From Chitinophaga polysaccharea (GTDB lineage: Bacteria; Bacteroidota; Bacteroidia; Chitinophagales; Chitinophagaceae), in contig NZ_CABFVU010000001.1 in assembly GCF_902150045.1 (NCBI RefSeq), positions 3,286,001 through 3,350,000 of the forward strand: 64,000 bases of DNA, read 5' to 3'. Each line of letters starts with the position of its first letter. Position 1 is the stretch's first letter. Below the pieces are notes generated by a model. That model had not been told where the DNA came from, searched no databases, and saw nothing but the letters and a program-made list of their open reading frames with translations. Below are positions 30,206 through 33,632 of the stretch, in pieces. The position numbers and the translations under genes were made by a program.

Positions 30206-30805
30206 ATGTTTTCCAGGCTCATCGACTCCATAAAAAAGGTGGAACATGGTTTTAAGCACATCCTGGAAACAGGAGATCAGTTGCTTAAAGACACGAGCCA
30301 TGATCCCCTGGAAACAGCCATCAAACTTACGTCCGGTGAAAGCTACCAGGAACGTATGTTGGGTGCGTGGTTGCTGGGGCTTTTATCGCCCCGTAGCAAC
30401 AAGGCATTAACACTGCTGAAAACAAAAGTGGTGACAGATGAAAACTGGCGGGTACAGGAAATGCTGGCAAAAGCCTTTGATCATTACTGCAGCAGTATTG
30501 GCTATGAAAAAGCGCTTCCGGAAATCAGGTTATGGCTGAATGATCCGCAGCCTAACCTGAACAGGGCTGTAGTGGAAGGCCTTCGCATCTGGACCAGCCG
30601 TCCTTATTTTAAGGAGCATCCGGATGTGGTTATTAAAATGATCAGCAGGCTGAAATCAAAGGAAAGCGAATACTTGCGCAAATCTGTAGGCAACGCGCTG
30701 CGCGACATCAGCAAAAAGCATGGGGCGCTGGTGGAGGAGGAGGTCAGGACCTGGGACCTGGAGCAACCGCGTATTGCCTTTGTGTACAGGCTTGTAGCGA
30801 AGTGA
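30206..30805 (+). CDS. HEAT-repeat / DNA-alkylation-repeat (AlkD-like) protein
   Basis: 199 residues, all helical, with repeated HEAT-like motifs: ERMLGAWLLGLL, ENWRVQEMLAKAFDHYC, NLNRAVVEGLRIWTSRPYF and YLRKSVGNALRDISKKH. These match the DNA alkylation repeat family (AlkC/AlkD relatives), whose helical solenoid binds damaged DNA. It is shorter than AlkD (about 230 residues), and I could not confirm the catalytic Asp, so a non-catalytic HEAT protein is possible. Its stop codon is 2 bases from the left edge of a large palindrome. Confidence 0.75.
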   Translation: MFSRLIDSIKKVEHGFKHILETGDQLLKDTSHDPLETAIKLTSGESYQERMLGAWLLGLLSPRSNKALTLLKTKVVTDENWRVQEMLAKAFDHYCSSIGYEKALPEIRLWLNDPQPNLNRAVVEGLRIWTSRPYFKEHPDVVIKMISRLKSKESEYLRKSVGNALRDISKKHGALVEEEVRTWDLEQPRIAFVYRLVAK

Positions 30806-30807
30806 TC

Positions 30808-31099
30808 GCGGAATTTGTCTGACTCAGGATTATGATAATTATAATGATTAGTTTGATTTTTACTTTTGGTTTTGTTGTTTTGGAATTCTTTTTAAAATAG
30901 TTAAGGGAGATAAAAGCAAATATCACCTGCTCTTATCTCCCTTAGTTATCCCTATAAAATTCTTTTTAAAATAGTTAAGGGAGATAGAAGCAAATATCAC
31001 CTGCTCTTATCTCCCTTAGTTATCCTTATAAAAATCCTAAAAAAATAAAATCAAATTAATCATTATAATCATCATAATCCTGAGTCAGACAAATTCCGC
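30808..31099. repeat. 292-bp nested palindromic element between two convergent stop codons
   Basis: The outer arms are inverted repeats of 53 bases (30808-30860 and 31047-31099) with 51 identities, starting GCGGAATTTGTCTGACTCAGG. Between them lie two tandem copies of a 74-base AT-rich unit (next entry). The element begins 2 bases after the TGA of the upstream gene and ends 1 base before the stop codon of the convergent gene, so it makes up essentially the whole spacer. Base composition is much more AT-rich than the neighbours. It is far larger than a normal terminator; a mobile REP/MITE-like palindrome is the best guess. A related 16-base end fragment lies at 33617. Confidence 0.85.
30884..31031. 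repeat. Two tandem 74-bp repeat units, each with its own hairpin
   Basis: Copy 1 (30884-30957) and copy 2 (30958-31031) differ at only a few bases. Each holds a stem TAAGGGAGATAAAAG / CTCTTATCTCCCTTA (13-14 of 15 paired) around a loop containing AAATATCACCTG. Either stem-loop is followed by TTATCC(C/T)TATAAAA rather than a clean T run. They sit between the 53-bp outer arms of the larger palindrome. Confidence 0.85.
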
Positions 31100-31100
31100 T

Positions 31101-32330
31101 CTACTCCCAATATTTCTCCCCTTTCTTCATTTTCTCCAGGGTGGTTTCGTAGTTTTTCTTTTCGTCGTCGCTGGCTTTGTTCATGGCTTTTTCTTCCCAG
31201 GCGAGGGCTTCTTCTTTTTTACCGGATTTATACAACAGGTTGGCATAGGTATCCATGAATGCGGGCACTTCCTTGTCTTTGAAAGAACGTTTGCTCCATT
31301 CCAGGGCCTGTTCTATGCACTGCATATCATTACATTTTTCGAAGATGGTCCAGGCGAATTCGTTGAGCGACTGCGGATCTGCTTTGTGGCCATATTTTTT
31401 CATATAGGCAACAATGTTAGCCACTGCATTATCTGCATCTTTTACATAGCTGAAGTATTGCGCTTTGGTTTTCAGGATCAGCTCTTCCGCGAAAGAAGGA
31501 TATTTTTTTGTCAGGCTGCTTTCAAGGGCTGCCCAATCAGGTTTGCTGCCGTCTTTCTTCATCAGCTTAGGATATACTTCTTCCTGTGCTACAATGTCCA
31601 TTACTTTTTGTTCCGCTTTACCGGGGCCAAGTATTTTATTCACTTTATCCGCATTGTGCAGGAACATATTAAAACCGGGGTCTTTACTGCTGTTGGTAAA
31701 TTTGGCAATAAACTCCAGGTTCACAGGGGAGTACAGGTCTTTCTGCTTGCTGATATATTCTTTTGAAATAAGCAAAGTATTTGGCTCGTCAACTTTGTTT
31801 AATGCCATGAGCGCCATCTGGCGAAGGAAAGCGGTATCTTTTTTCCCTTTCTTATAAAGATCCAGCTGTGTATAGTATTGTGTAGCCGGGTTGAGGGAAG
31901 CAGCAAATCTTTCAATGAACTGGTCTGCATCGGAGCCGCCCACGTGGCGGTCTACGATATGACCATCCGGTGCAAATACCAGGAAGGTAGGATAGGAGCG
32001 GACGGCATAGTCCTTTTCAAACTGTTTGGCGGCTGCATACCAGCTTTTCACTTCTTCATTGTCTTTGTCCGTTTGATCCATCTGTACTTTTACGTTGATG
32101 AATTTGTCATTCATAAAGCTGCCTACTTTTTCCTGGGGGAAAACATTGGCCGACATAGATTTGCAGGGGCCGCACCAGGTCGTGAAGCAGTCTACAAAAA
32201 TGTACTTGTTTTCAGCTTTGGCTTTGGCCTTTACATCGGCCCAGCTGCTACCATGCTCGAAATGCATGCCTTTGTCCTGCGCTACAGCCAGCAGGGGCAA
32301 CAGGAAGGCCAGGAGGAATAGTTTTTTCAT
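31101..32330 (-). CDS. Secreted thioredoxin-fold protein
   Basis: 409 residues: signal peptide (LLPLLAVAQ), then a thioredoxin domain (about 25-150) with the redox pair Cys53-Gly-Pro-Cys56 in TTWCGPCKSM and the cis-proline in RSYPTFLVF. The remaining 250 residues are helical, TPR-like (FAEELILKTKAQYFSYVKDA, WSKRSFKDKEV, YANLLYKSGKKEEALAWE) and lysine-rich at the end. Proteins of this layout in Bacteroidota act in periplasmic disulfide reduction. It is convergent with the HEAT-repeat gene across the palindrome. Confidence 0.9.
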   Translation of the reverse strand: MKKLFLLAFLLPLLAVAQDKGMHFEHGSSWADVKAKAKAENKYIFVDCFTTWCGPCKSMSANVFPQEKVGSFMNDKFINVKVQMDQTDKDNEEVKSWYAAAKQFEKDYAVRSYPTFLVFAPDGHIVDRHVGGSDADQFIERFAASLNPATQYYTQLDLYKKGKKDTAFLRQMALMALNKVDEPNTLLISKEYISKQKDLYSPVNLEFIAKFTNSSKDPGFNMFLHNADKVNKILGPGKAEQKVMDIVAQEEVYPKLMKKDGSKPDWAALESSLTKKYPSFAEELILKTKAQYFSYVKDADNAVANIVAYMKKYGHKADPQSLNEFAWTIFEKCNDMQCIEQALEWSKRSFKDKEVPAFMDTYANLLYKSGKKEEALAWEEKAMNKASDDEKKNYETTLEKMKKGEKYWE

Positions 32331-33603: not shown

Positions 33604-33632
33604 GCGCCTTCGGCGCGTCAGACAAGATCCGC
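33604..33632. repeat. Degenerate copy of the palindrome end between convergent genes
   Basis: A short GC hairpin (GCGCC-TTC-GGCGC, 33604-33616) is followed by GTCAGACAAGATCCGC (33617-33632). The latter matches the right end of the large palindrome (GTCAGACAAATTCCGC, 31084-31099) at 14 of 16 bases. As in the large element, it ends directly at the stop codon of a minus-strand gene (33633). Confidence 0.5.

Follow-up and report, generated by a model that had tools for sequence, protein, structure and literature searches.

The nested palindrome at positions 30808-31099 is a non-coding copy of a dispersed family of giant hairpins that, with a probability of roughly 0.6, has a terminator role and spreads with the aid of a GxxExxY protein. 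The window is the whole 64-kb stretch of DNA that was analysed (G000:C1:3286001-3350000) and belongs to a genome of 7.6 Mb (G000). We read the hairpin family as non-autonomous and MITE-like, spreading with GxxExxY and acting locally as a bidirectional terminator, and the findings suggest a little-known kind of mobile DNA.

The element lies between two protein genes, not in a 23S rRNA helix, and the features of the locus are as follows.

30808-31099, no strand assigned: nested palindromic element (G000:C1:3316808-3317099), a copy of the GCGGAT-TTTGTCTGACTCAGGAT family
30808-30867, plus strand: left outer arm, with end GCGGAA, head TTTGTCTGACTCAGGAT and then units of ~9 nt (GATTATGAT and others)
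31040-31099, minus strand: right outer arm, 92% complementary to the left arm
30884-30957, no strand assigned: first inner 74-nt unit, a hairpin around GGGAGAT...ATCTCCC
30958-31031, no strand assigned: second inner 74-nt unit, a tandem copy 97% identical to the first
30206-30805, plus strand: convergent neighbour, a HEAT-repeat/DNA-alkylation-repair-like protein (PF08713, PF13646), stop 2 nt from the element
31101-32330, minus strand: convergent neighbour, a thioredoxin-domain protein (PF13098), stop 1 nt from the element

The first-pass annotation had described outer arms enclosing two tandem hairpin units in an AT-rich, non-coding element that fills the spacer between two stop codons, and each part of that description was borne out. 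Counted by eye, 51 of the 53 outermost positions match, and the outer arms measure 60 nt each at 92% complementarity. The two 74-nt units were recovered at 30884-30957 and 30958-31031, and the element begins 2 nt after the stop of the left ORF and ends 1 nt before that of the right ORF. There is no gene within this copy, the AT content of which is 71.6% versus 51.8% for the window. The two inner units look like a later tandem duplication. RNA folding of the element gave -131.1 kcal/mol versus -49.2 +/- 4.75 kcal/mol in 100 shuffles (z -17.3). Six inverted repeats were detected in the 64-kb window, three of which are parts of this element, and the remaining three are 26-29 nt long at 70-73%.

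The end motif of the element occurs 184 times in the genome (at most 3 mismatches) versus 0 times for the reversed control, which upholds the earlier view of a dispersed, MITE-like palindromic repeat, and a blastn run for copy number gave 134 matches (pieces, both strands). Merging the 100 listed of the 184 motif places with the best 150 covariance-model matches gave at least 106 family places; family copy numbers are lower bounds because both kinds of match were taken from partial listings. Clean palindromes were delimited at 92 of the at least 106 places (the filter found none at 14 of 106). They span 59-741 bp. The window element is, as the first-pass annotation stated, far larger than a terminator. 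The usual copy consists of the end GCGGAT, the head TTTGTCTGACTCAGGAT, units of ~9 nt (GATTACGCT, GATGATTAC and others), a T-rich stretch, an inner GGGAGAT/ATCTCCC hairpin and the mirror image of the whole; the ends of the family are also written GCGGAT/TTTGTCTGACTCAGG and GCGGAT-TTTGTCTG. In the 79 of 92 copies in which the end motif could be anchored, inverted matching past GCGGAT/ATCCGC was not clearly above chance, and the coordinates of the window element agree with these family ends. The head is near-constant within a subfamily and varies between copies (GTCTTGGAACACTGATT, GTCTTTTTCAGGATT and GACTCACTGATT), and the two ends of one copy mostly agree in head, with exceptions such as L257 and L298. 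The ~9-nt units differ between copies yet are mirrored across both arms of each copy. When the right arms of the 89 elements of 120 bp or more were compared with each left arm, the best match was the element's own right arm in 55 elements, and it was among the five best in 76. In 17 single-unit copies selected by filter, 25 of 57 pairs had changed on both sides (shuffle mean 13.1; 0 of 500 shuffles as high). Selection for the hairpin and arm-to-arm conversion would both explain the mirroring. The 741-bp copy (L295) was checked for a second cargo gene and holds only ORFs of 50-71 aa. In some copies, tandem left arms face a single right arm (three in L074 [= L204], two each in L069 [= L202] and L072 [= L203]), and at L048:1137-1561 in genome G026, three arm pairs are nested symmetrically, each inside the tip of the next.

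Three named records contain the exact 19-base motif, and only in Chitinophaga hostae 2R12 does it occur as a facing pair in a hairpin; Botryobacter and Pseudomonas koreensis have single matches each. A search of Rfam returned eight matches up to E 1, every one under the gathering score. Hairpins of the miRNA-precursor type or similar accounted for seven of these sub-threshold matches, among which one Streptococcus sRNA model appeared twice. A phase-variable inverter, a CRISPR array and a group II intron remnant were thought of only and set aside. Within the parts of the literature that our searches made available, no publication on the GCGGAT hairpin family was found.

Family members are concentrated at gene 3′ ends. 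The spacers of the 92 delimited elements, classed with a simple gene caller of our own, are 42 convergent, 39 tandem, 8 divergent and 3 unclear, and their orientation differs from that of the 49 spacers of the window (p 0.0018). Among the 83 elements that have genes on both sides and no ORF overlap (9 of the 92 being left out), the facing 3′ end is at most 15 nt away in 80 of 118 cases, as is the facing 5′ end in 7 of 48. Of 41 convergent spacers, 19 have each of their two stops no more than 15 nt from the element. We conclude that a dispersed hairpin family with a shared anatomy mostly occupies gene ends in this genome. The next convergent spacer of the window holds one further feature.

33605-33632, no strand assigned: mini-hairpin CGCCTTCGGCG and then a lone element end (GTCAGACAAGATCCGC), filling the spacer but for 2 nt

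This feature is probably a relict of the hairpin family. Such 11-mers occur at most 30 nt from 22 of the 92 elements versus 0.08 expected. In the most alike pair of copies (L210 and L230, 92%), the likeness continues for ~30-36 nt past the right end and through an adjoining CGCCGAAGGCG mini-hairpin, and the mini-hairpin may therefore travel with the element.

The genome has one GxxExxY match (C1:2162763-2163101; 126 bits to PF13366 and 131 bits to TIGR04256), and the gene sits inside a family member with the same sort of arms (L106, gene at L106:1474-1863), which are 93% complementary over 58 nt. Among the copies examined for ORFs, L106 is the sole one with the gene. The ORF that follows begins with codons supplied by the right arm of the GxxExxY element (L106:1860-1945), and the stretch that they encode (MKNFSFNTQKKISVISVISLILSQTISAQ) resembles a signal peptide built out of element sequence. 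A GxxExxY match is present in 19 of the 60 genomes sampled from the genus. When the main locus per genome was taken (leaving out a second, broken match in G010), significant inverted repeats (p <= 0.002) flanked 14 of the 19 loci, weak repeats (p 0.014 and 0.025) flanked 2 and none flanked 3. Outside the genus, 8 of the 18 GxxExxY loci examined lie between inverted repeats at p <= 1/301, and in the control, 0 of 60 random slots of genome G003 were so flanked. Two subfamilies were distinguished by eye from the alignment. The GNGFQEV type is found in 7 genomes (G000, G026, G029, G033, G061, G066 and G082), and its loci have clear arms of the GTCT...GGATT or GTGATT sort; the GPGL type is found in 11 genomes, where most of the clear arms belong to the GCAAAG sort. 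The protein of G001 fits neither type.

The closest structural neighbour of an AlphaFold2 model of GxxExxY (pLDDT 91) is SSO0001 (Z 10.4, rmsd 3.2, 100 residues), which Foldseek also puts first (E 6e-5) and which we take to be a Cas4 nuclease. Nucleases of the RecB/Cas4 group have a D-ExK-QxxxY pattern, and the residues invariant across 28 GxxExxY sequences, D71, E81, K83, Q95 and Y99 among others, fit this pattern. A fold of the PD-(D/E)XK type is therefore predicted by the model, and the fold alone shows no function. Hjc resolvases are also in the list of structural neighbours at Z 6-7, perhaps reflecting only a common arrangement. In the section available of one publication, a single gene was called cas4 by one program and GxxExxY by another (PMC8934634). 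No described role for GxxExxY (TIGR04256/PF13366) was found in the literature searched.

The distribution of the gene was compared with that of the hairpins across the 60 genomes, with R1 covariance-model matches scored per genome as the best 43 at most. R1 matches at E <= 1e-6 were found in 18 genomes, and GxxExxY of any type was present in 12 of the 18 R1-positive versus 7 of the 42 R1-negative genomes (Fisher p 0.0005). The first 36 genomes gave 7/8 versus 5/28 (p 0.0006); the 24 held-out genomes, for which the prediction had been noted beforehand, gave 5/10 versus 2/14 (p 0.085), which makes the association weak in this second part. The GCAAAG head reached 7 or more matches in 10 of 11 GPGL genomes versus 1 of 49 others, where the cuts of 7 GCAAAG matches and 18 R1 matches were fixed after the data had been seen and the subfamilies were sorted by eye. 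The reversed control of the GCAAAG search gave single matches in five of the 60 genomes, and nine GCAAAG places that were inspected, mostly where matches paired, are palindromes of 148-455 bp.

Independent pairs were counted on an rpoB tree of 59 genomes (G005 left out) made by a quick method. The GPGL gene and GCAAAG heads changed the same way in ~4 of 5 pairs and never opposite (p 0.125), and the GNG gene and R1 counts of 18 or more (the CAGGATT family) did so in ~2 of 6 and never opposite (p 0.5). The crossed pairings disagreed (0.7 same and 1.5 opposite; 0 same and 0.6 opposite). The direction is as expected, and a sample of this size is too small to reach 0.05. Neighbouring genomes contrast in the same sense: G017 has the gene and 7 matches versus no gene and 0 matches in G018, and G065 has the gene and 112 matches versus no gene and 0 matches in G080. 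The gene is not in every element-rich genome, however, as no GxxExxY match at E <= 1e-5 was found in G003 (at least 43 R1 matches), G059 (40) or G076 (21). G000 and G003 are sister genomes and both are element-rich, with the gene in G000 only. Either the gene was lost from the element-rich genomes without it, or it is only a passenger.

If GxxExxY were an accidental passenger of one copy, the family could be an ordinary MITE that a conventional insertion-sequence transposase mobilises in trans. Such an element would be expected to show the high copy number and the terminal inverted repeats seen here, as well as the interior that is non-coding in all but one of the copies examined for ORFs, and the three element-rich genomes without GxxExxY fit this reading too. 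The ends argue otherwise. In the 79 anchored copies, direct repeats were observed 10 times at k=2 (5.6 expected), 3 times at k=3 (1.4 expected), once at k=5 and never at k>=6. Thus, no target-site duplication clearly above chance was found at the ends of the 79 copies, as the first-pass annotation had noted for the single copy. Furthermore, unlike a short-ended MITE, the element forms a single hairpin over its full length and its arms covary, the GxxExxY subfamily tracks arm type across the genus sample, and the transposase search, which was for Y1, found none in four carriers. We consider the MITE reading unlikely.

Another way in which such hairpins could arise is without movement, if host terminators grew in place by slippage and arm-to-arm conversion and were homogenised by recombination between loci. 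Elements do occupy terminator positions, and in the sister genome G003 some hairpin, as judged by eye, is present at each of the first 8 syntenic sites (2 elements, 2 stubs and 4 plain hairpins).

The full comparison with G003 covered 800 kb, in which both flanks were present for 11 element sites of G000, and the sites were sorted by eye. Two of the 11 hold elements with arms unlike those of G000: L235 has self-matching arms that differ from those in G000, and L237 has a recognisable left arm only and no right arm. Three have a stub-like hairpin made of outer-arm sequence (L236 and L238, and with less certainty L232, which could also be a plain terminator), five hold plain hairpins (L233, L234, L239, L240 and L241) and one (L231) holds a weak hairpin at most. 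A strict stub pattern had no match in the 800 kb, and a strict mirrored-head pattern matched one full element versus 0.2 by chance; the heads of G003 are more divergent than the strict patterns, because the stubs seen by eye and two further elements escaped them.

The history of the window site speaks against growth in place. The thioredoxin-domain gene was checked in ten orthologue loci. The HEAT gene adjoins it in four (G003, G033, G017 and G018), and no HEAT match was found within 1.5 kb in the other six. The spacers of the four relatives have short terminator-like hairpins of three different sequences, one being common to G017 and G018, and the hairpin element is absent from all four. The element is thus neither single-copy nor conserved at this locus by vertical descent, as it is missing from 4/4 relatives that keep the gene pair, and because these relatives hold a short terminator-like hairpin there, a gain in this lineage is the most likely history. 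The gain is well supported by the four relatives. Only 3 nt of non-element spacer is left in G000 versus 35 nt in G003, and the event was therefore a replacement or an insertion with loss rather than a clean insertion. That the window-site hairpins of the four relatives have other sequences, that unrelated loci hold copies with as much as 92% identity across 251 aligned positions and that some members carry a gene all make growth in place quite unlikely.

The first-pass annotation had also pointed to REP/BIME elements moved by RAYT transposases. Nested palindromes, extragenic position and high copy number are on the side of that reading, as is the presence of repeats on both sides of the Y1 gene at 16 of the 29 loci tested in the order. 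It nonetheless fails, because no RAYT (Y1) transposase was found in the genome and no target duplication at the elements. For G000 it is refuted unless an HUH transposase too diverged for the Pfam profile is present, and we consider it very improbable. The PF01797 (Y1 transposase) profile gave 0 matches at E <= 1e-5 in G000, G003, G026 and G033, the four genomes with copies at the blastn level. Y1 matches are present in G001 and G028, which carry only 1 and 9 R1 matches. Moreover, the elements measure 59-741 bp rather than 20-40 bp, and the repeats around the Y1 genes of the order are of another type, being GC-rich and, as judged by eye, in several cases containing GGTAGC. The outer 7 nt of the anchored copies are GCGGATT at 37 of 79 left ends and 32 of 79 right ends, and no GTAG end is among the outer 7-nt ends listed for them.

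We therefore favour a hairpin family with a terminator role and GxxExxY-aided spread. In the manner of an intrinsic terminator, the window element is a hairpin directly behind the stops, at a place where relatives hold a terminator-like hairpin, which the element would have replaced. Read from either side, it would fold as RNA into a long hairpin by which the two convergent transcripts are ended or protected, and insertions at gene ends may be tolerated or favoured for this reason; termination by the element is probable. The family would spread as hairpin DNA helped by the PD-(D/E)XK nuclease GxxExxY from a full-size member, in the way supposed for RAYTs and REPs. Its substrate would be hairpin or cruciform DNA, either of terminators or of another element's tip, and such action at hairpin tips would in turn produce nested palindromes and no target duplication. 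Because the sister genome G003 has many elements and no such gene, we only infer that GxxExxY mobilises the family, and put this at slightly below even odds. If the proposal is true, it would provide a match of gene to palindrome of the REP/RAYT sort with a nuclease fold, which would suggest a function for GxxExxY, and mobile hairpins would be able to take over as terminators of convergent genes.

A broader and more tentative possibility is a class of one-hairpin mobile elements. Its enzyme would be a small Cas4/RecB-like GxxExxY protein matched to the arms that opens hairpins or cruciforms, which would let copies extend into the tips of terminators and of other copies. Elements with PF05635 (S23p) genes would then form a class parallel to this one, with the 23S rRNA intervening sequences as its branch in rRNA. 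A gene-to-palindrome match of the proposed sort would also make the origin and movement of 23S rRNA intervening sequences directly testable. PF05635 genes of the order have inverted-repeat flanks at 15 of 30 loci. PF05635 (S23p, four-helix bundle) genes have inverted-repeat flanks of their own, and similar arms (GATTTACG/TTTTTTGATTT) form dispersed non-coding hairpins in G028, G060, G064, G066 and G067; the loci of these observations are L171, L172 and L470, and L380, L383, L386, L387, L392, L394 and L395. At L115 (G053:C13:799366-799590), a PF05635 piece adjoins a PF13366 piece within a single frame of 100 aa, which gives the appearance of recombination between two cargo genes of hairpins.

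Several known systems resemble the hairpin family in part. Like MITEs, the elements are short, non-coding and multicopy with terminal inverted repeats, and they differ from MITEs in showing no target-site duplication clearly above chance. Correia/NEMIS, RUP and RPE-type elements are likewise small, dispersed, non-coding inverted-repeat elements near genes, and several of them make target duplications or sit inside ORFs, unlike the hairpins here; we know of none tied to GxxExxY. In the sections available of one account, REPs are palindromes of 20-40 bp with a GTAG end, and the REP-RAYT system has one gene per genome, many non-coding palindromes and a gene type that matches the repeat type (PMC3733652). 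The hairpins here share that plan and differ in having no GTAG end, a length mostly 5-10 times greater, another protein fold and placement at 3′ ends. The 23S rRNA intervening sequences with S23p (PF05635), for example in Coxiella, are also long stem-loops with inverted-repeat ends and a small ORF inside, but they are located in a 23S rRNA helix, are cut by RNase III and encode a four-helix protein; their functionality and origin are called unclear in the part of the source available, where a mobility role is said to have once been proposed for the ORF (PMC4990558). Closest, as far as the sections available describe them, are the TIRtrons with their TIRYTs, in which the gene of a small DNA-acting protein lies between long terminal inverted repeats and some genomes have a dispersed family of such repeats, both of which were found here (PMC3733652). 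TIRtrons encode an HUH tyrosine transposase, whereas the hairpin family encodes the PD-(D/E)XK protein GxxExxY and no Y1 transposase was found with it, and each of its repeats is a complete nested hairpin placed at the end of a gene. We conclude that TIRtrons are the nearest known system in plan, with another protein.
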